Origin: Methanoregulaceae archaeon
Lineage (GTDB): Archaea > Halobacteriota > Methanomicrobia > Methanomicrobiales > Methanospirillaceae
DNA: 57,630 nt
NCBI GenBank assembly: GCA_021371995.1
Contig: JAJFVA010000008.1
Coordinates: 1-57,630 of the forward strand
Reading direction: 5' to 3'
Under the pieces are notes generated by a model that saw only the letters and a program-made list of their open reading frames with translations, was not told where the DNA came from and made no database searches. Each line of letters starts with the position of its first letter. The stretch's first letter is position 1. Both the position numbers and the translations under genes were made by a program. This document shows positions 8,590-57,630 of the stretch, piece after piece.

Positions 8590-8617
8590 ATTCCATTGGA
8601 AATGAAAGGGTAGGGGC
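8590..8617 (+). promoter_or_regulatory. ORB-like motif 2
   Basis: CCATTGGAAATGAAAGGGTA followed by GGGG. It matches the archaeal ORB pattern of a short dyad, GGAAA, and a downstream G-string. Confidence 0.7.
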
Positions 8618-8719
8618 GGGATCAATATTCTTGAACTCGTATGGAAGGTTTGGAATTTCCCTTCAAGAATAAATTTGTTATAACCTCTATTTTTTAAAGA
8701 AGAAGCAATTATTGTGATT

Positions 8720-8745
8720 ATTGGAGTGGAAACAAAGGGGTTTAT
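8720..8745 (+). promoter_or_regulatory. ORB-like motif 3
   Basis: GGAGTGGAAACAAAGGGGTT, the copy nearest to orc1/cdc6, about 70 bases before its start. Binding here could also let the protein regulate its own gene. Confidence 0.65.
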
Positions 8746-8811: not shown

Positions 8812-10092
8812 TTGCCAGAAACTCCTGAATCAGTTGGATTATTCAAAAAATATCTTTCAGGGAATAAAATATTTAAAAACAGGGAAGTATTACGGCACTC
8901 CTACCGTCCCCAGATCCTTCCTCACCGGAGACCCCAGATCGACATGGTCGCATCGATCCTGGCGCCGTCACTGAAAAATGAAACCCCTTCAAACATTCTT
9001 ATCTATGGGAAAACCGGCACAGGAAAGACCGCAGTTGTAAGGTATGTGGGAACCGAACTGGAGAATGCAAGTACCCATATGGGGACCAGCTGCCGGGTAG
9101 TACACCTGAACTGTGAAGTGATCGACACCCAGTATCGGGTTCTCGCCCAGATCTCAAAAAGTCTGTCCGGAGACGATGAGATTTCAAGTGACAAAGTCCG
9201 GTCTATAATCCCGATGACCGGATGGCCTACCGACCAGGTATACCAGGAACTCAAAAACCAGCTCGAAGCTACTGGTGGCGTTCTGGTAATCGTGCTTGAT
9301 GAGATCGACAAACTGGTAAAAAAAAGTGGTGATGAAACCCTCTACAACCTTACACGTATAAATGCCGATCTTAAAAAATCCAAGGTGAGTATGATCGGGA
9401 TCTCAAACGACCTGAGTTTCAAGGACTTTCTTGATCCAAGGGTTCTCTCCTCCCTTTCAGAAGAAGAACTCGTTTTCCCTCCCTATAACGCCCCCCAGCT
9501 TTGTGATATCCTCCGTCAGCGCGCCGAGATCGCGTTCCTTGAAAATGCCCTCGATGAGGGAGTAATCCCCCTCTGTGCTGCGCTTGCAGCACAGGAACAC
9601 GGCGATGCCCGCAGGGCGCTGGATCTGCTCCGTGTTTCAGGAGAGATTGCCGACCGGGATGAGGCAGATCACGTGGCAGAAAAACACGTAAAGATCGCGC
9701 AGGCCAAGATAGAGACGGACAGCATGGTGGAGTGTATTGCAACGCTCCCCACCCAGAGCAAGGTGGTCCTCTACTCCATGCTCCTTCTCGACCAGATGGG
9801 ACAGAATATTTTCACAAGCGGTGAAGTGAGCAGGATATACAAAGAGATTGCCCCGGTCATGGATCTTGACATTCTCACGCATCGGCGAATCACCGATCTG
9901 ATCTCTGAACTCAACATGCTGGGTGTTATCAACACCCGGGTTGTCAGCCGCGGGCGATATGGGAGGACAAAAGAGATGTGGTTTGACTCAAATAATCATA
10001 AAATACAGGACGTCATTCTGAGCGATCCACGCCTGAGCGCCCATGGGCTTGACAGCATGGATGTTGCCTGGGTGAAGACCCTGTTCAGGTGA
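8812..10092 (+). CDS. orc1/cdc6: Orc1/Cdc6 replication initiator
   Basis: AAA+ initiator ATPase that binds origin recognition boxes and loads the MCM helicase. Visible are Walker A GKTGTGKT (about residues 66-73), Walker B VIVLDEIDKL (about 157-166), a sensor-1 region ending in ISNDLSF, the arginine-bearing sensor-2 segment HGDARRALDLLR, and a C-terminal winged-helix domain for ORB binding. The start is TTG 8812, preceded by a G-rich stretch (ggggggtc) about six bases away; no ATG occurs before the conserved domain. Its 426 residues are typical. Location beside the AT-rich ORB-bearing gap supports a cis-acting initiator. Confidence 0.95.
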   Translation: MPETPESVGLFKKYLSGNKIFKNREVLRHSYRPQILPHRRPQIDMVASILAPSLKNETPSNILIYGKTGTGKTAVVRYVGTELENASTHMGTSCRVVHLNCEVIDTQYRVLAQISKSLSGDDEISSDKVRSIIPMTGWPTDQVYQELKNQLEATGGVLVIVLDEIDKLVKKSGDETLYNLTRINADLKKSKVSMIGISNDLSFKDFLDPRVLSSLSEEELVFPPYNAPQLCDILRQRAEIAFLENALDEGVIPLCAALAAQEHGDARRALDLLRVSGEIADRDEADHVAEKHVKIAQAKIETDSMVECIATLPTQSKVVLYSMLLLDQMGQNIFTSGEVSRIYKEIAPVMDLDILTHRRITDLISELNMLGVINTRVVSRGRYGRTKEMWFDSNNHKIQDVILSDPRLSAHGLDSMDVAWVKTLFR

Positions 10093-23221: not shown

Positions 23222-23524
23222 CTAGGAAAGGAGGTCGAGCGCCTCCTTTCCGCTCATTCCGATCTGAACCCCATGCTGTTCAGCCGGAAAATTAGCCTCC
23301 CGTATCACTCCTGAAACCAGGTCTTCGAGCGTGGCAATTACCTCGCCATCAACCGGCCTCACCCGGGCTGCGGGATAGCCAAATTTTGCAAGTGCGGCCA
23401 CATCAATGGCGCCACACCCCACCAGGCCGTTTCTGGCAATCACCAGTACCAGGTTTACCGGACCGAGCGGGATGACATATCCTGTTCCTGTTGAATTTCT
23501 GAGCGGGATGACTTCCTGATTCAT
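23222..23524 (-). CDS. DUF1805 (YunC-like) family protein
   Basis: About 100 residues with the DUF1805 pattern: a strand TGYVIPLGPVNLVLV, then GLVGCGAIDVAALAKFG and ARV near the middle, and a C-terminal helix. I set the start at ATG 23524, since the longer frame upstream (to 23605) adds residues not typical of the family and crosses a perfect palindrome that looks regulatory. Function is unknown; the family is widespread in methanogens. It lies upstream of and divergent from the second cofH. Confidence 0.75.
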   Translation of the reverse strand: MNQEVIPLRNSTGTGYVIPLGPVNLVLVIARNGLVGCGAIDVAALAKFGYPAARVRPVDGEVIATLEDLVSGVIREANFPAEQHGVQIGMSGKEALDLLS

Positions 23525-49261: not shown

Positions 49262-50274
49262 TGCAGGCAGTACTGGCACAGCTTGCCGGGGGAGAGCATC
49301 TGAGCCCTGATCAGGCAACGGGTGTAATGGAGACGATTGCTACCGGACAGGCAACCGCGGCTCAGATCGCCTCCCTGATGACCGCGCTTCGAATGAAAGG
49401 AGAGACTGCAGAGGAGATCACGAGCTTTGTCCGGGTGCTCCTTCGCCATGCAGTCACTATCCGTCCACAGGTTTCCGGCCGGCTTGTCGATACCTGCGGG
49501 ACCGGGGGGGATGGTGCGAGGACATTTAATATCAGTACCGCGGCTGCATTCGTTGCTGCAGGTGCAGGGGTTCCGGTGGTCAAACACGGAAACCGGAACG
49601 TGAGCAGCTCGTGCGGATCTGCTGATGTCCTTGAAGCGCTTGGGGTGAGGATTGATCTCTCACCCGAACGCGTTTGTTCGGTGGTGGAAGAGACAGGAAT
49701 CGGGTTTCTCTTTGCGCCTTCTTTCCACCCTGCACTGAAACATGCGGCTGCACCCCGGAAGGAACTTGGATTCTCAACGGTATTCAATCTCCTTGGTCCA
49801 CTTCTCAACCCTGCCGGGGCGCCCGCGCGTCTCTGCGGCGTGTACAGCCCCGCGCTCATTGCCCGGTTTTCAACCGTACTGCTGGCACTCGGAACAGAGC
49901 GGGCGATGGTGGTGCATGGCCAGGGACTTGACGAGATCACTGTTGCCGGCCCGACGCTGGTGGCTGAAATTGATGGGGGGGGCATCAGGAGTTATACTAT
50001 ATCCCCTGAAGAGTTTGGCATTCCACTATCCCCACACTCGGCCCTTGCCGGGCGTTCCCCGCAGGATAATGCAGAAATTATCCGCATGATTCTCTCCGGT
50101 GTTCCGGGTCCGGCCCATGATGTGGTGGTAATGAATGCTGGGGCAGCCATCTTCCTTGGCGGTGAGGCACCTGACCTTGAGCGAGGGATAGAGAAGGCAG
50201 AGGAAGCGATAGCATCGGGTGCGGCATCTGAACGGCTGGAGGCGCTTATACAGGCCTCACGGAGCGGAGAATGA
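49258..50274 (+). CDS. trpD: Anthranilate phosphoribosyltransferase
   Basis: Transfers the phosphoribosyl group of PRPP to anthranilate. The PRPP loop CGTGGDGARTFNIST (about residues 80-94), VVKHGNRNVSS and FLFAPSFHPALK are conserved, and 338 residues is standard. ATG 49258 overlaps the trpG stop; the following codon is also ATG. It is the third gene of the operon, in the order E-G-D-C-F-B-A, which differs from the EGCFBAD order known in Methanothermobacter. Confidence 0.96.
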   Translation: MMQAVLAQLAGGEHLSPDQATGVMETIATGQATAAQIASLMTALRMKGETAEEITSFVRVLLRHAVTIRPQVSGRLVDTCGTGGDGARTFNISTAAAFVAAGAGVPVVKHGNRNVSSSCGSADVLEALGVRIDLSPERVCSVVEETGIGFLFAPSFHPALKHAAAPRKELGFSTVFNLLGPLLNPAGAPARLCGVYSPALIARFSTVLLALGTERAMVVHGQGLDEITVAGPTLVAEIDGGGIRSYTISPEEFGIPLSPHSALAGRSPQDNAEIIRMILSGVPGPAHDVVVMNAGAAIFLGGEAPDLERGIEKAEEAIASGAASERLEALIQASRSGE

Positions 50275-51032
50275 TTCTCGATCAGGTGCTCCAGGCTACT
50301 GCCGGAAGGGTTGCAGAGTTGCCCGGAGCGGAGGAGTACACTCAGCCTGCACAAAAAAGAGGTTGCAGCCTGTCTTCTGCAATCGGGCAGAAAGAGCGGG
50401 GAAACAGGATCATATCGGAGATCAAGTTTGCATCCCCTTCGCGTGGTACGATACGCCGGGCAGGCAATCCTGTGGAATTTGCCCGGGACTTTGCCCGTGC
50501 GGGGGCTGCTGCCCTCTCCATCCTGACAGAACCGGTCTATTTCCATGGGGATCCTGCGTTTATCCCTGCTATCAGGCCGCATGTGGAGATCCCACTGCTC
50601 AGGAAAGACTTCATTATCGATGAAAAACAGCTTGCAGAGAGCCGGGCTCTCGGAGCCGATGCTGTTCTCCTCATCGCAGGAGTGCTCGGAAACCGGTTGG
50701 AGGATATGGTCGATTCGGCAATTGCGTATGGACTTGAGCCTCTTGTGGAGGTTCATTCTCTGGAAGAAGTGAAGAAAGCCCTCTCGACAAGTACACGTAT
50801 GGCGGGAATCAACAACCGGAATCTCAGAACTATGAGGACTGATCTTTCTACCACCATGAGGCTGTCTCCCCCTCTTCACCTGTCCGGTATTACCGTTGTG
50901 TCAGAGAGTGGAGTGATCTGGCCGTGTGATATCAGGACACTCAGGCCGTTTGCAGATGCATTTCTCATCGGCACCGCAATCATGGGAGCTCCTGACCCCA
51001 TACAGCGCATGGGGGGATTTGTATCCGCGTGA
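50271..51032 (+). CDS. trpC: Indole-3-glycerol phosphate synthase
   Basis: Closes the indole ring from carboxyphenylamino-deoxyribulose phosphate. The (beta/alpha)8 protein of 253 residues has SEIKFASPSRG (about residues 45-55), ILTEPVYFHG, LLRKDFIIDEKQ (catalytic Lys) and GINNRNLRTM. It overlaps trpD and trpF by 4 bases each. Nothing is missing. Confidence 0.95.
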   Translation: MILDQVLQATAGRVAELPGAEEYTQPAQKRGCSLSSAIGQKERGNRIISEIKFASPSRGTIRRAGNPVEFARDFARAGAAALSILTEPVYFHGDPAFIPAIRPHVEIPLLRKDFIIDEKQLAESRALGADAVLLIAGVLGNRLEDMVDSAIAYGLEPLVEVHSLEEVKKALSTSTRMAGINNRNLRTMRTDLSTTMRLSPPLHLSGITVVSESGVIWPCDIRTLRPFADAFLIGTAIMGAPDPIQRMGGFVSA

Positions 51033-51598
51033 AGATATGTGGCATCACCAGTGCAGAAGATGCAATCATGGCAAAAGAAGCGGGAGCTGATATGATTGGA
51101 GTTATTGCATTCTCACGATCTCCCCGCTGTGTGGATCCCGTAATGATCCGGGAGATATTTGATGCCGTTCCATCCCTGACCCGGTGTTGTGTTGCACACG
51201 AGCCGTCTTCGGAGGAATTAAAAGAGATCTGTGCGATCAGACCTGATGCCATCCAGGTCTCCTGTGCAGTACATGTACCGGATACCTGCACCGCCCGGGT
51301 ATTCCGGAGCATCAGGCCCGGGGATGTCATCCCTGATGATGCAGACGCCCTTATCGTGGACGCCAGCCGGGGAAGCGGCATGCTCTATGATGCAGCCTAT
51401 GCGGTTTCGGTTGTCAGGTCGGCACCCGTCCCAGTATTTCTTGCAGGAGGGTTAACACCTGAAAATGTGAGGGAAGCTGCCCGGGCAGTGAGACCCTCCG
51501 GTGTCGATGTGGCAACAGGGGTCGAGAATGCACCAGGTAAAAAAGACAGAAAGAAGGTGAGAACATTCGTGGAAAGAGCAAAGGGAGTGAGGTTTTGA
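51029..51598 (+). CDS. trpF: Phosphoribosylanthranilate isomerase
   Basis: Amadori rearrangement of phosphoribosylanthranilate. KICGIT at the N-terminus has the catalytic Cys; Asp is in IVDASRGSG, and [10 protein letters not shown] and GVDVATGVE are phosphate-site segments. The 189-residue form is short but intact. GTG 51029 gives the canonical MKICGIT start and overlaps trpC. In gene order it follows trpC, whereas the reaction precedes it. Confidence 0.94.
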
Positions 51599-52767
51599 CC
51601 TCGTCATCCCGTTTCGGGCCGTATGGCGGGCAGTTTGTTCCCGAGAGCCTTATGGGTGCACTCGATGAACTTGAGGAAGCGTACCGCACGATCGTACCAT
51701 CGGAAGAGTTCCGGAAAGAAATGGAGTATTATTTAAGGGAATATGCCGGTCGCCCGACACCGCTTACGTTCTGCCGGAACATGTCAGAAGATCTTTCCTG
51801 CAGGGTGTATCTGAAGCGGGAAGACCTCCTCCATTCCGGTGCCCATAAACTGAACAATGCACTCGGGCAGGCTCTTCTGGCAAAACTCATGGGAAAAAAA
51901 CGGATCATCGCGGAGACCGGGGCCGGGCAGCATGGAGTGGCCGCAGCAATTGCAGGAGCAGCTCTTGGTCTTTTGGTGGAAGTATACATGGGGGATGAAG
52001 ATATGGAACGGCAGGCCCTGAACGTTGCCAGGATGAGGATGCTTGGTGCGACCGTGATTCCGGTGCATTCAGGCTCCCGGACCCTTAAGGATGCCATCAA
52101 TGAGGCCCTCCGTGACTGGGTGACAAATGTACACAACACCCACTACCTGATAGGATCGGTCGTCGGCCCCCACCCATTTCCGTCACTCGTCCGCGATTTC
52201 CAGACGGTGATAGGGAATGAGATCCGGGATCAGGTTATGATAAAGGAAGGACATCTGCCTGATGCGATGGTCGCCTGCGTTGGTGGAGGTTCAAATGCCA
52301 TAGGGATGTTCTCTCCTTTCCTTGATGATCCAGTCGAGCTCTTTGGGGCTGAGGCAGGCGGGGAAGGGCTTGCAGGACGACACGGCGCGACATTGTGTGG
52401 CGGAAAGCCCGGGGTACTGCATGGGGCATACACGTATCTCATCCAGGATGCATTCGGCCAGATTCTCGAATCGCACAGCGTCTCTGCAGGACTCGATTAC
52501 CCCGGGGTCGGTCCCGAGCACAGTTTTCTCAGGGACAACAAACGGGTGAACTATGAGGCAGTCACCGATACAGAGGCTATTGACTCCTTTCTGTATCTCT
52601 CGCGTACCGAAGGAATAATTCCAGCGCTTGAGTCCGCCCATGCAGTTGCACTTGCACGTAAAATTGCTCTGGGTCGGGCAAATGACGATATTCTCATCAT
52701 TAACCTTTCGGGGAGAGGCGACAAGGATATTGCCCAGGTTGCAGCTTTTACGGGTGATTGCCAGTGA
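51595..52767 (+). CDS. trpB: Tryptophan synthase beta chain, TrpB1 type
   Basis: PLP enzyme that joins indole, channelled from TrpA, to serine. [14 protein letters not shown] starts the protein, PLP Lys85 is in [12 protein letters not shown], and [13 protein letters not shown]-type (here [13 protein letters not shown]) and NLSGRGDKD are intact. TTG 51595 overlaps the trpF stop. With trpB2 at 42480 the window encodes two beta chains; this one partners TrpA. Confidence 0.96.
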
Positions 52768-53564
52768 GCTCTAGGATCACGGGTGCGTTCTGCGCTGCAG
52801 GAAGGCCACTCCTTGTGGCATGTACTGTTGCCGGGGATCCCTCGTTTGACGAGAGCATCAGCATCATCAGGGAACTCGTTTGTTCTGGAACAGATATCAT
52901 TGAAATCGTCATGCCTTTTTCCGATCCTGTTGCAGACGGCCCTGTTATCCAGCAGGCTGGTGCCCGGGCTCTCGCCTCAGGCATGAACACCGACAGGTTG
53001 TTCGAACTGATTCGTGAGGTGAGGAAAGAAACGGAAATCCCCCTCCTTATCATGACCTATGCCAACATCGTGGTTCAGAGAGGGATTGAGGAATTTTACC
53101 GGGATGCAGCCCGGGCAGGTGCAGACGGTATAGTGGTCGCTGATGTCCCGCTCGAAGAGGCAGATCCGTTCTGCGCTGCGGCCGGGAGTGCGGGAATCGA
53201 TCCAATCCTCTTTGTCAGCCAGACAACATCCCCTGAACGGATAGAGAAGATCCTCTCAAAGGCGAGTGGATTCGTGTATCTTGTTGCCGTGATGGGAGTA
53301 ACAGGGACAAGGGAGGAGATATCTCCTGAGGCCATTGCCCTTCTGAAAACTGTCAAAGAGAGAACATCCCTTCCGGTGGTGCCCGGATTCGGGATATCAA
53401 CCCCTGAACATGTCAGGAGATATGCACAGGCAGGGGCCGACGGGGTTATTATTGGGTCTGCCCTCGTCAGGATTGTCGGGGAGTACACTTCCCGGAAGGC
53501 AGGAGCAGAATCGGGGATAGGGGCTCTGGTGAAGGGATTGAAGATCTCTGCCCATGAAAACTGA
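52764..53564 (+). CDS. trpA: Tryptophan synthase alpha chain
   Basis: Cleaves indole-3-glycerol phosphate. Catalytic Glu is in [17 protein letters not shown] (about residue 48), and Asp in the family position before [21 protein letters not shown] and GVIIGSALV bind phosphate. GTG 52764 overlaps the trpB stop in a GTGA arrangement; TTG 52758 would add two residues. It ends the operon and is convergent to a DUF6125-like gene. Confidence 0.95.
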
Positions 53565-53661
53565 TGAACAACGCATCATGTTCTGCGGCCGGAAATGTCT
53601 TTAGCGAGAGTGTCAACACGGGATGATGCCCCACACAAACCAGATAATCCCTGTTAAAATT

Positions 53662-54186
53662 TTACTCGTCCGCCAGTGTAAAACGCCATTTACAGAACAT
53701 ATCTGCAGGATGGCGATCAGGGGGAGCAAAGAGGCATTCGACAACGATCCTATTGTCGATCTCTTTTGCAAAACTGGTGAACTCAGCCCTGTGCATCTCC
53801 CTGCAGACATATTCGTCAAGACCTCTCCTGAGTCGTGCCTCCTGGGTCGGACAGGAGGGAACTGAAATAATCACCTCGTCTGCCCTCTCCTCAATTACAT
53901 AGTCGACAATGATCGCCCAGGGAAAGAGGCGGAGCGCCTGCACAAATCCCCCAAGTCCTCTCTCCGTGATATTGAAACGTGTCTTTATATCCTTTGCTGC
54001 CATCGAGGAGACACGGCCCCATACCTTTTCATTGACGGTCTCAGCAACAGGCTGCCCGAACTGTTCGGCAATAGAAAGAAACCAGAAAGCGTCCACAACC
54101 CGGTAATGCCAGAGGAGGAATTCCAGGTACTGGTGTTTTTCCGCATCCGTCATCTGATCGAAGATAGAAAGGTCCATGTACGTCAT
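53662..54186 (-). CDS. DUF6125-like conserved protein
   Basis: 174 residues: an acidic helical start, then [39 protein letters not shown], and [17 protein letters not shown], which resemble a conserved methanogen family I recall as DUF6125. The C-terminal part contains two CP/Cys residues and [18 protein letters not shown]. No catalytic motif or membrane segment is evident. Function is unknown. It is convergent to trpA. The upstream side borders the repeat patch. Confidence 0.7.
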
Positions 54187-54313
54187 AGGGGATCGCCTCA
54201 GGAATGGTAAGCATCATGCCCATGCCGATATGAACATTTGGGTTTGTGTTGTCAGGCAGCACAGGCAGGCAAGACAAGCTGGCAGGAGAAGATAACCCTC
54301 ACCCATCAGCGCA

Positions 54314-54333
54314 GGAGGGGTAGCTACCCCTCC
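54314..54333. repeat. Perfect 20-base palindrome
   Basis: GGAGGGGTAGCTACCCCTCC reads the same on both strands. The 16-base core recurs at 54411. Confidence 0.75.
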
Positions 54334-54410
54334 AATCCATTCGGGCCGGATGTGGGGCCGGGGACCCCCCCTCCCATCAAGGGACCCCTACCCACCCCCC
54401 CTGGCATGGA

Positions 54411-54436
54411 AGGGGTAGCTACCCCTCCCCTTTTTT
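54411..54436 (+). terminator. Second palindrome followed by a T-tract
   Basis: AGGGGTAGCTACCCCT (54411-54426) is followed by CCCC and six T residues (54431-54436), the form of an intrinsic terminator on the plus strand. Confidence 0.5.
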
Positions 54437-54693
54437 GTATCCCGGTCCGGTAAAAATACAGCGCTCCGCCGGTGTGTTCATCTGAATAACCCTTGCTGCC
54501 AGTGCAATTAAGGACCCCTCCCTACCCCTCCCTAAGTGGCAGGGGTGGGTAGGGGTCCCGTGCTGCGGGTTTGGAAATGGCGGGAGGGGGGACCCCTCGT
54601 ACTGGTGGAGGGGTGGGTACCCCCCGCGCTATCAACAGCGGTTTCATGAGCTGCCGCTGCGTACCCGTACAGGCTGAATGGGGAGGTGCCGTA

Positions 54694-55077
54694 ATGCAGG
54701 ACGTGTCACTGGAGTTGATTGTCAGCCTACACAGGAATGTACTTGCAGGTTCACAGGCAGATCTCCGGATCATCTCCGAAGGGAACCTGCACCAGCTGGT
54801 CTTTCAGGCGAACCTGAAAGACGACCTGTTCTCCCGGGCGGCCCTTGCATTCTGGTCCCTGTGCGCGTACCCTGCCTTCAGGGAGGGAAACAGGAGGACT
54901 GCGTACTGTCTTGCAGAAAAGATCCTGGGCTCGGCAGGCTGCCGGGTGGACCTCCCCTGCCCGGACGTCCGGGCACTGGTGCAGGGAATCGATGCTTTCA
55001 CGGTCGAGCCGGAGGACGTGGAACGGGTGTTCAGGAACGCAGCCGTACCTGTCTCACTGTCTGGGTCAGAGCGGTAA
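54694..55077 (+). CDS. Fic/Doc-like protein lacking the catalytic histidine
   Basis: About 127 residues with the Doc layout: LIVSLHRNVLAG, ISEGNLHQLVFQAN, then AYPAFREGNRRTAYCLAE (about residues 60-77). The motif matches H-x-F-x-[DE]-[GA]-N-[KG]-R-T except that the position of the catalytic His holds Pro, preceded by Tyr. Fic proteins modify targets with AMP or phosphate; Doc is a toxin phosphorylating EF-Tu. Loss of His suggests an inactive or altered protein. ATG 54694 excludes a long N-terminal extension read through the repeat patch. No antitoxin is recognised. It overlaps dinB convergently by 12 bases. Confidence 0.65.
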   Translation: MQDVSLELIVSLHRNVLAGSQADLRIISEGNLHQLVFQANLKDDLFSRAALAFWSLCAYPAFREGNRRTAYCLAEKILGSAGCRVDLPCPDVRALVQGIDAFTVEPEDVERVFRNAAVPVSLSGSER

Positions 55078-56217
55078 CGTTGCCTGGGCTGTATCCCTCT
55101 TCTCAAACGATGAGAGCCGGACCCCGATGAGCCGGATCTTCCTACCATCGTACTCCTCACGGAAGAGGGTATGGGCCAGCGACTGTAAGGATACAGGATC
55201 ATTCGCGAAATGGGTGAGACTCCGGCTCCTGTTCCTGGTGATGAAACCCATGTAGCGGATCTTCAGCGTGAGCGTCCTGAACCGTAGATTTTCTTCTGAC
55301 AACGTTCCGGAGACACTCCGGACAAGTGCATCCAGTGTTGAGATAATCTCCTCAACATCATCGGTGTCGGTTTCGAAGGTGGTCTCCCGTGAGATTGATT
55401 TGGTCTCACCCGATCCTTCTTGTACTCCGCTGTTGTCTATCCCGCAGGCAAGCTGGTGGAGAACGATCGCACTTCGCCCGAACCTGCCGATCAGGACCTG
55501 GACATCCTGCTGCGCAAGGTCGCCGATCGTTCGGATTCCCATCTCGAAGAGCATCCCCTCGGCTTTCATTCCCACTCCCGGGATTCTCCGTACGGGAAGC
55601 GGGGACAGGAAGTCCCGGGCTGCGGATGGCGTTACTATGGTGAGTCCGCCGGGTTTCCGGAAATCCGAGGCGATCTTGGCAATGGTCCGCGAAGGGGCAA
55701 TGCCGACTGAACACGAGAGGCCCAGGCGCATGCGGATACACCCCCGGATTTCCTCGGCAAAGGCCTGCGCAGTCTCAAAGCCGCCCAGCGGGCTTATGTC
55801 GAGGAACGCTTCATCGATACTCACCTGTTCCATCCGGAAGCCGTATGACCTGAGGATCGTCATCACGGCCGCCGATGTCTGACCATATGCGGGAAAATCC
55901 GGGGGGAGGAAGACGGCCTGGGGGCAGAGGAGGTACGCCTGGGATATCGGCATGGCAGAACGAATCCCGTACTTCCGTGCTTCGTAGGAACAGGTAGAGA
56001 CCACCCCCCGCCCTTTTCCCTGTTTGGGATCTGCACCGATGACAACGGGTTTTCCTGTCAGGTCCGGTCGATTCCGTTGTTCCACGGATGCGTAAAAACT
56101 GTCCATATCGAGGTGGAGAATAATCTGCCTGCCGGGGGTATCAGGAATTCCTGTTGCCCCAGAAATTGTCTCGGGGGATCTGTGGCCTGTTTCCCGGGAT
56201 TGCGACACGAGCACCAT
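55066..56217 (-). CDS. dinB: DNA polymerase IV (Y-family, DinB/Dbh)
   Basis: Translesion DNA polymerase. The catalytic acidic residues are in LHLDMDSFYASVE (about residues 35-47) and SIDEAFLDIS (about 135), with VVSTCSYEARKYGI and the HhH-type RRIPGVGMKAEGML (thumb). A little-finger domain follows. The C-terminus ends AQATLPL, which starts like a PCNA-interacting QxxL box but lacks the aromatic pair. The N-terminus from 56217 includes a poorly conserved leader of about 30 residues; a later start is possible. It lies 9 bases from nreA, forming a DNA-repair pair. Confidence 0.92.
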   Translation of the reverse strand: MVLVSQSRETGHRSPETISGATGIPDTPGRQIILHLDMDSFYASVEQRNRPDLTGKPVVIGADPKQGKGRGVVSTCSYEARKYGIRSAMPISQAYLLCPQAVFLPPDFPAYGQTSAAVMTILRSYGFRMEQVSIDEAFLDISPLGGFETAQAFAEEIRGCIRMRLGLSCSVGIAPSRTIAKIASDFRKPGGLTIVTPSAARDFLSPLPVRRIPGVGMKAEGMLFEMGIRTIGDLAQQDVQVLIGRFGRSAIVLHQLACGIDNSGVQEGSGETKSISRETTFETDTDDVEEIISTLDALVRSVSGTLSEENLRFRTLTLKIRYMGFITRNRSRSLTHFANDPVSLQSLAHTLFREEYDGRKIRLIGVRLSSFEKRDTAQATLPL

Positions 56218-56226
56218 ACAGCACCC

Positions 56227-57402
56227 TCACCCACCGATGGAGAGGAAATCCCCAAGCCGGCACTGCCTCTCCCGGATTGCCGATTGCAGGAGTGGCCCTT
56301 CCTCGATGAATCGGGTCACCGGCAGCATGAATTTATCCGTCAGGTACCGGAGTGCCGGACGTATCCCTTCAAACTCGGTCGGTGTCTGCTGCATCGCGCT
56401 CCGGACATTCTCCCGGACATTGAAGACGCCCATCGGGACATACCCCTTCCTTGCCTCCCGTAAAATGATCGCTCCTGCCTGCTTTCCCTCGCGGGCAAGT
56501 GCTTCGAGCACCGCCATCTTGCAGGAGTAATAGCACCCCCCGAGAGGGGAGTAGGTTGTCTTTTTTTTCGTGCCCTCGTAGTCCGAGAAGACCAGTTCCT
56601 CATTTCCCAGCACATGGAGGAATGCCTCCGACCACTCATACTGCCATGCTGTCGGCATCAATATGACAGCATAATGGTTGTTGAGGCTTGAAAACTCGTG
56701 CACCCTCCAGGTGTCGATCACGGCATTTCTTTTCACATCCGACAGGAGCCGGTCACCGATGATCGTATCGCACGCCGTGATAGACCACCGCGTTGGAACA
56801 AGGTGTCGTGCCCTCCCCTGGCCCATTGTCCCGACGGAGAATGCTTTCTGGATACTGGAGAACGGCACCCCGTTTTTGTGCAGGTCCACCACGGCATCTG
56901 CTGCCCGGAGGTCCGTATCATAGAATGTGCGTTCCAGTTTCGGGTTCCACCGCCCGGGCTCGACATCGAACCGCTCGATCCCCGCACTCGGCCCAAACGG
57001 CGTGTGCTCTTCGGAAAATGACTGGCCCTGAGGGGCGGATGTGAAAGCAACCTCACTTTCAAGCGTCGCTGCGGAAAGCGATATCTCCTGGAGCTTTCCG
57101 ATAAAACGATTGTCGAGGCTTGCGGCATTCACCTGCTGCTTTCCCCGGATGAGATTCATGCGATACCCGATGATCTCTTCCTGGGTATGGTTTCCGGGTA
57201 TCCATGCCTCGGGCATGTCCATGACCATGGTGTCCCCATGCTCGGGGACGACCATGGGACCTGCAAACACATCCGGATAGTTCCAGCTCCCGATAAAGAC
57301 AGATGGTGGGGTACTGCCTTCGATCTCCTTACCCATGGCAACCGATCTCATCGGCATGGTCGATGCCGTCAGTTGCCGGAGGTAGGCACCTTTCCCGATC
57401 AT
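56227..57402 (-). CDS. nreA: NreA family DNA repair protein
   Basis: Archaeal repair protein of the Nre family, reported to act with PCNA after DNA damage. The 391 residues contain the Nre blocks PPSVFIGSWNYPDVFAGP, SAATLESEVAF, and GTMGQGRARHLVPTRWSITACD, then the C-terminal region TKKKTTYSPLGGCYYSCK. The extreme C-terminus QCRLGDFL matches a PCNA-interacting QxxLxxF box. The N-terminal zinc-binding cysteines of some Nre proteins are not seen here. It precedes dinB on the same strand, suggesting joint expression. Confidence 0.88.
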   Translation of the reverse strand: MIGKGAYLRQLTASTMPMRSVAMGKEIEGSTPPSVFIGSWNYPDVFAGPMVVPEHGDTMVMDMPEAWIPGNHTQEEIIGYRMNLIRGKQQVNAASLDNRFIGKLQEISLSAATLESEVAFTSAPQGQSFSEEHTPFGPSAGIERFDVEPGRWNPKLERTFYDTDLRAADAVVDLHKNGVPFSSIQKAFSVGTMGQGRARHLVPTRWSITACDTIIGDRLLSDVKRNAVIDTWRVHEFSSLNNHYAVILMPTAWQYEWSEAFLHVLGNEELVFSDYEGTKKKTTYSPLGGCYYSCKMAVLEALAREGKQAGAIILREARKGYVPMGVFNVRENVRSAMQQTPTEFEGIRPALRYLTDKFMLPVTRFIEEGPLLQSAIRERQCRLGDFLSIGG

Positions 57403-57470
57403 AGGATACTGAGAACAAGGCAGGGAAGGGTATTAAGGGGGTGAGTGCGCGGGGAGAAAGTGATCGGCTT

Positions 57471-57630
57471 CTATCTCCGCACGGTATATCCGGCATTCCG
57501 GAGGATCCGGATCATCGATTCCTCCCATTTCCTGTCATCCGGCTCCTTGTGTTCCTCGATACAGCTCTCCCAGACCTTTGTCAAGAGTGCATCATCGGAG
57601 CAGAGCGTCCTGATGTTCATGATACGTCCG
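57471..57630 (-). CDS. Small unrecognised protein, possibly partial at right edge
   Basis: Open frame on the minus strand from the window edge to TAG at 57471. ATG 57620 would give 49 residues: a mixed acidic/basic, helix-prone sequence with RKWEESMIRILRNAGYTVRR at its end. The frame stays open upstream to the edge, so the true start may lie outside. I recognise no family. It is 68 bases upstream of nreA and may be part of the same transcript. Confidence 0.4.
   Translation of the reverse strand, partial: GRIMNIRTLCSDDALLTKVWESCIEEHKEPDDRKWEESMIRILRNAGYTVRR

Follow-up and report, generated by a model that had tools for sequence, protein, structure and literature searches.

The stretch of DNA analysed here (the window in the following) comprises 57,630 nucleotides of contig C32 in the assembly of a Methanoregulaceae archaeon. 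Between a DUF6125 protein gene and a short Fic-like protein gene it contains an intergenic patch of palindromes and G/C runs, which makes up one complete multi-hairpin element with the following parts and neighbours (coordinates refer to the window; a strand is given where one applies).

53662..54186, minus strand: flanking DUF6125 protein gene (PF19620, E 1.2e-26)
54120..57630: Methanoregula-like segment carrying the element; left edge within the DUF6125 gene, right edge past the contig end
54312..54627, plus strand (by convention, from left arm to right arm): complete multi-hairpin element (nhmmer, E 4.2e-85 with a 13-copy seed profile that already contains the window copy)
54314..54333: left terminal module, perfect palindrome GGAGGGGTAGCTACCCCTCC (palindrome scan)
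54342..54366, plus strand: conserved left-arm stretch CGG-CCGGA, then GGGGACC (alignment A3, 19 copies)
54375..54398, plus strand: left arm of a 24-nt inverted repeat, including GGGACCCCTACCCACCCC (inverted-repeat search)
54411..54426: inner palindrome AGGGGTAGCTACCCCT, then CCCC TTTTTT at 54427-54436 (palindrome scan)
54464..54507, plus strand: core CTCCGCCGG..GTTCATCTGAAT..TGCCAGTGCAA, the type I form of the conserved core (alignments A1, A2)
54512..54558: right inner hairpin GGACCCCTCCCTACCCCTCCC / GGGGTGGGTAGGGGTCC (folding)
54542..54565, plus strand: right arm of the 24-nt inverted repeat (inverted-repeat search)
54607..54625: right terminal module GGAGGGGTGGGTACCCCCC (imperfect terminal inverted repeat with the left end, 16/18)
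54694..55077, plus strand: flanking short Fic-like protein gene (PF02661, E 1.3e-4, 23.1 bits, just below the 24-bit cut-off)

Both perfect palindromes named in a preliminary description of the patch, GGAGGGGTAGCTACCCCTCC and AGGGGTAGCTACCCCT, lie where they had been reported, the former being the longest perfect palindrome of the window and the latter tied for third longest, and the run of four C and six T directly after AGGGGTAGCTACCCCT is likewise present. The 14-mer GGGGTAGCTACCCC, with up to two mismatches allowed, matches three times in the window, always inside the patch (expected 0.22; a count of three was reached in 0 of 100 shuffles). For the inverted repeat the spacing of 143 bases stands, but its arms measure 24 nt at 92% complementarity instead of the 18 bases claimed; it is one of seven inverted pairs found in the 1.1 kb examined, six of which fall within the patch. 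The composition had been called unlike anything else in the window, which holds for the runs of four G or C, with a maximum of 26 GGGG/CCCC runs per 300 bases (step 50) at 54351 versus 13 at the best position away from the patch (55901), but hardly for the GC content, which at 0.63 is barely above the next highest values (0.62). The patch is intergenic as described, its true unit being slightly larger than had been listed. Folding, which had been proposed as a check, bears out a strongly structured region: for 54290-54660 the folding energy has z = -3.9 on the plus and -5.3 on the minus strand, and 0 of 100 shuffles equalled the real sequence on either strand. A further perfect palindrome of 18 bases, TGCCCGGACGTCCGGGCA, is located at 54958-54975 within the Fic-like gene.

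Within its own 1.85 Mb genome (G000) no second copy of the patch was found. GGGGTAGCTACCCC occurs there exactly twice, both times in the patch; BLAST with the whole patch returned outside matches with E > 1 throughout, and the model R1 gave three matches, all within the window copy. Similarly, BLAST against 40 relatives yielded short matches at best (E 0.0095, at most 34 bases), and the pattern AGGGGT-N0-12-ACCCCT was found 21 times in 12 genomes of the same genus, as compared with 28 times for its reversed control. The leads to further copies came from the 16-mer GGGGTGGGTAGGGGTC / GACCCCTACCCACCCC of the inverted-repeat arms, which was searched with up to two mismatches in 100 genomes of the family. 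Taken across all of them, the loose pattern was not obviously commoner than its reversed control, but exact matches, besides the two in the window, were found in G096 (6), G052 (2), G015 (1) and G056 (1), and the loci holding them contain full-length relatives of the patch. One of the G096 pairs is inverted as in the window, its members being 158 bases apart versus 159. Thus, the term "dispersed element" fits the family, whole units of ~310 bp occurring at different intergenic sites in Methanoregula, but not the genome of the window with its single copy. The preliminary description had further held that a motif unique to this locus and not conserved would argue against an element family; it is indeed unique to the locus in its own genome, but it is conserved, as full-length relatives exist in Methanoregula.

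BLAST with one G096 copy over the 39 genomes of its genus gave matches at E <= 1e-6 in four, G096 itself among them, and a sequence-only model of the left arm, built from 19 copies and run with stricter filters under which weak copies may be lost, gave 22 matches with E < 1e-10 in 5 of the 232 genomes of the order. These five are four Methanoregula species (G102 with 8 matches, G096 with 7, G052 with 5, G110 with 1) and the genome of the window (1). Nineteen of the 22 are the model's own training rows, while three are new to it (G096:C42, G102:C4:21699 and G102:C3:86273); the remaining matches, with E 1.2e-5 or worse, are located in 24 further genomes or in the same ones. A left-arm pattern scan of genome contigs retrieved at least seven stretches, all of them belonging to the MAGs STB_131 and OWC_0057, both named Methanoregula sp.; this number is a lower bound, as two G052 copies that fit the pattern are absent from its output. 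Among viral contigs, no match to one exact 19-mer of the core was found, a search that diverged cores would escape. Judged by G/C-run density alone, 200 kb of G059 contain four dense patches and 200 kb of G052 one, which from these two samples would amount to perhaps tens per genome.

Related methanogens harbour other dispersed palindrome families: the reversed control TCCCCA, gap 0-12, TGGGGA occurs 370 times in the whole genome of G027, 109 times in G014 and 61 times in G018. In G018 there are also AGGGGT-N-ACCCCT hairpins, 32 in number, of which many read AGGGGTGAAACCCCT or AGGGGTTCTCACCCCT. A further hairpin type with GGGGGGTATGC-GGA-ACCCCCC-like modules adjoins type I copies at G096:C53 (L191:960-1250) and G096:C7 (L276). 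In the type II elements at G059:C1:1500600-1500911 (L289) and G059:C1:578855-579287 (L287, L264), the two arms are direct repeats of each other (at the tRNA-Ser site with 88% identity across 92 bases, at 1500 kb with 80% across 87) and enclose a core region that has TACTCA/TTGAG modules.

The unit of ~310 bp is bounded by terminal inverted repeats, which are imperfect, and contains several GGGGT-NNNN-ACCCC hairpin modules as well as a conserved core of ~44 nt. From the left, an end GGGGTACCCACCCCTCC or a variant of it is followed by the CGG(G/C)CCGGANCCGG stretch, CAGGGACCCCCCC, one or two GGGGT-NNNN-ACCCC modules, often a T tract, the core, further modules and the inverted right end. The family consensus of the core reads CTCCGTCGG..GTTC....GAA....TGC..GTGCAA, and subfamilies, which are partly genome-specific, differ in the four central bases of the modules and in the side that bears the G run. 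An alignment of 14 copies comprises 11 complete ones of 281-318 nt (two of these, at locus D, ~30 nt shorter), one that is complete with an insertion (G102_C37) and two lacking the right arm (G052_122 and the G052 copy at the site of the window). Terminal inverted repeats are present, though imperfect, in all 11 complete copies, with 13-21 identical bases over 14-25 aligned (raw counts). The 13-copy profile also matches the opposite strand, nearly at full length in four copies (in L139, L141, L152 and L153) and over 126 + 69 bases in the window copy, so that the element is a quasi-palindrome. None of the six reading frames is open throughout in all 11 complete copies, so the element is apparently non-coding; since some copies hold one near-full-length open frame (up to 105 codons, strand and frame differing), coding is unlikely rather than ruled out.

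The unit recurs at different intergenic sites in the four Methanoregula species, with some sites common to several species, and individual copies have lost the core or the arms. G096 and G052 have five element sites in common: one (C15a = 2772 kb) retains core and both arms in both genomes, two (C7 and C20) are complete in G096 and reduced in G052, with the right arm alone left at C20, and damaged copies are present in both genomes at the other two, the DUF6125 | Fic site and C15b = 2700 kb. In the tree, the G096 and G052 copies at locus D are sisters (support 1.0), and so are the window and G052 copies at locus A (0.97). At locus B, between the genes for tRNA-Ser(GGA) and an N6/N4 DNA methylase, the G102 copy joins three of the four other G102 copies (0.81) and the G096 copy falls into another subfamily, which suggests that copies were homogenised within genomes or that the site was hit twice. 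Other Methanoregula species possess different hairpin arrays at locus B, and in G087, G117 and G080 the spacer is short and element-free. Copies are mostly 50-79% identical, except for one orthologous pair (90%) and one G102 pair (95%; C14 and the partial C12), and are thus old, which counts against claiming movement at the present day.

No target-site duplication was seen in 11 copies, the longest flank match being 3-5 nt (mean 3.5 versus 3.7 in the control), and when flanks were dealt between copies 385 of 500 arrangements were as good as the real pairing. A base-precise empty site was not recovered, because the flanks are too diverged. Our search for a mobilising enzyme, which covered the Y1 family in Methanoregula, found none in the carriers: Y1_Tnp was not detected in any of the four Methanoregula carriers, although in G110, assembled in ~810 contigs, such a gene could be missed, and it is present in 5 of the 39 genomes of the genus. 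G096:C53, where element pieces lie 2 kb apart, was considered as an autonomous parent and rejected, a RhuM-family gene and another ORF lying between the pieces and the first piece being complete by itself. A Fic-domain ORF (PF02661) at L170:2018-3115 of G052 lies near the copy G052_122, which parallels the Fic-like gene next to the copy in the window; these are two cases.

Among known systems, MITEs share with the present family the short, apparently non-coding unit, terminal inverted repeats, several intergenic copies and decay by deletion; by contrast, no target-site duplication is seen here, no cognate transposase is known and the internal layout is one of multiple hairpins with a conserved core. 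REP, BIME and REPIN sequences, which are associated with RAYT (Y1) transposases, are dispersed extragenic palindromes of tens of nucleotides with inverted pairs and GGAG beside the hairpins. All of this recurs here except for the size, which is ~310 nt, and for the Y1 transposase, which was not found in the four Methanoregula carriers. The PATEs of Haloquadratum are archaeal, palindrome-rich and non-autonomous as well, but they are tied to IS200/IS605 elements. Identity with REPIN/RAYT or with IS200/IS605-derived elements was rejected because no Y1 transposase was found in the four carriers. On balance, we consider it rather likely that a dispersed, non-autonomous DNA element multiplied within Methanoregula, the patch being one of its complete copies. 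These copies would either move by transposition in trans or be copied by gene conversion from one to another, with the foldback arms possibly serving as the recognised structure and the core as a specific site.

How the copy came into the window is a separate matter. To the left of the element, where the comparison covered 37.7-53.5 kb (the trp operon side), the window is syntenic with its own genus at 68-76% identity, while the 54.1-57.63 kb stretch is 82-89% identical to Methanoregula (G052, G110, G096). Compared with G052 in 60-base bins, identity stays at 60-82% as far as 54119, after which three successive bins reach 98, 93 and 83%. The segment 54120-57630 carries genes for the Fic-like protein, a DinB/Y-family polymerase and Nre; elsewhere in the same genome there is a second dinB at G000:C15:59566 (54% amino acid identity), and the Nre region is matched over 304 bases at G000:C30:36392 (70%). 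The DUF6125 | Fic site is also occupied in G052 (right arm lost), G096 (core lost) and G110 (at a contig end), and it is without the element in G102 and G045. Because of this shared occupation and the switch in ancestry, the window copy probably did not transpose at this site; it would have entered, by recombination inside the DUF6125 gene, together with at least 3.5 kb of flanking Methanoregula-type DNA, or else the contig is an assembly chimera.

The prospect that C32 is chimeric, and that the element is absent from this genome, is close to even, if slightly below; it concerns the host and is compatible with any reading of the element itself. The sharpness of the switch at ~54120 within DUF6125, only 3.5 kb before the contig end, argues for it, as does the fact that the copy is the sole one found in the genome, but recombination inside a shared gene would look identical, and completeness of the genome is rated at 98.6%, contamination at 0.43%. 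In favour of a chimera, contig C14 of the same assembly begins inside a second DUF6125 gene, 80% identical, which is followed by an FMN-reductase-like neighbour as in G006 (47% amino acid identity over 168). Since the overlap of C14 and C32, 361 bases long, is just 80% identical, C14 is not simply the broken-off continuation of C32, and the second DUF6125 gene at its start is compatible with both recombination and mis-assembly.

Alternatively, the element could act as RNA, i.e. as a structured RNA, a leader or a bidirectional terminator retained at intergenic sites, whose GC hairpins and T tracts halt transcription both ways. The very stable folding would be in keeping with this, as would the CCCC and TTTTTT that come after a hairpin of the window copy, the hairpins with T6-T8 in other elements and some copies located between convergent genes such as those for tRNA-Ser(GGA) and the N6/N4 DNA methylase. 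A link to gene ends, which the preliminary description had raised, was not borne out, however: of six sites examined, three are divergent or upstream of a gene start (divergent for the window copy and for G096_C53, between kdpC and rhuM; upstream of the rubredoxin gene start for G096_C20), two are convergent (locus B, G052_122) and one lies between tandem genes (G096_C50), a mixture unlike the 3'-end position of an intrinsic terminator. Neither strand is consistently the stabler, the plus strand folding lower in 7 of 12 copies and the minus strand in 5. Covariation, being uninformative on mixed subfamilies, was rerun on two single ones and is poor, double changes that keep the pairing occurring in 7 of 97 pairs in one (6 sequences) and in 3 of 98 in the other (3 sequences); the covariation terms are unfavourable. 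Furthermore, Rfam gave no match at E up to 1 on either strand of 50000-57630, and copies at shared sites lose core or arms. We therefore regard an RNA-level function as unlikely; the lack of strand preference in folding and the poor covariation among the 6 and 3 usable sequences speak for a role at the level of DNA, as far as can be read from the sequences.

More divergent elements of the genus have mainly the core in common, and this core resembles the dyad of Orc1/Cdc6 origin boxes. In archaea, origin recognition boxes (ORB) accompanied by G-rich inverted repeats have been described, for example at oriC1 of Haloarcula hispanica (PMC3936714); comparable here are a TCCA-NNN-GAA dyad in many cores outside the window's subfamily and the G-rich inverted repeats nearby, while it is unlike an ORB that the elements are dispersed rather than at orc1, that the G-string is mostly absent and that the window copy does not score as a box. 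It has to be considered, at a rather low probability, that the elements are related to Orc1/Cdc6, the copies binding or titrating the replication initiator or deriving from small replicators. When 28 elements were scored with a dyad matrix built from eight oriC boxes of the window, G052 and G015, the top site fell on the core in 17 of them, with a chance of ~0.026 each, but these counts are not independent, as the elements are related and mostly chosen by the core matrix. The latter had picked out 28 distinct G/C-rich places among fetched loci, one of which (L297) is the box near orc1 of G052; the 28 rows of the dyad test omit L297 and include the window copy, and the 27 rows of the G-string test omit both. 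Picked by G/C runs alone, 31 distinct patches, many of them from loci fetched with element queries, a few from other genera and thus not a random genome sample, contain [CT]TCCANNNGAA in 11 cases; background density would give 1.3, and shuffled patches gave 0.8 (maximum of 4 over 200 shuffles). In 200 kb of G052, the core matrix has two matches over 15 bits, one element and one box near orc1, but its reversed control also has two there (none in G059, where 200 kb gave three matches to the matrix itself). Against this relationship, a G-string follows the dyad in 7 of 27 cores, no more than in the background (12 of 41), and the window core stays below 15 bits with the element matrix, whose sole match in the window (15.5 bits) is at 23482, outside the element. 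The box matrix prefers a non-core site on the window copy (7.8 bits, with 5 of 100 shuffles as good). Although 6 of the 7 type I sites in G052 lie within ~0.5 Mb of orc1, this range was chosen afterwards and no claim is made.

The widest form of the idea, which we hold to be improbable to the same degree, takes these elements, perhaps tens per Methanoregula genome, for a novel class of DNA, selfish or regulatory, by which Orc1/Cdc6 is recruited or titrated, with hairpin arms exchanged and homogenised fast and an origin-box-like core kept as the main shared sequence. The window itself contains an orc1/cdc6 gene at 8812-10092 (77.7% amino acid identity to the G015 gene; Cdc6_C and Cdc6 lid domains), flanked by an AT-rich stretch with ORB-like boxes at 8591 (+), 7915 (-) and 8718-8742 (the third seen by eye), a region that, on its sequence features, is likely a replication origin of this genome. 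Finally, local slippage or amplification of G/C runs at a single locus, without any element family, would accord with the exact palindrome being unique to this locus in its genome, but the full-length relatives seen at further loci and in further species rule it out to a vanishing remainder.

In the literature on Methanoregula palindromes and repeats, no description of the element was found among the matches listed, subscription journals being mostly outside the coverage. As far as searched, the family is thus real and undescribed; it is most likely non-autonomous mobile DNA of Methanoregula, and its single copy in the window is an immigrant. Methanogen genomes thereby gain a repeat superfamily of considerable size, one that in the traits tested conforms neither to MITEs nor to RAYT-linked elements and bears signs of concerted change between copies, and the element marks imported DNA in a related genus. 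If its core binds Orc1/Cdc6, dispersed repeats would be tied to replication control in archaea.
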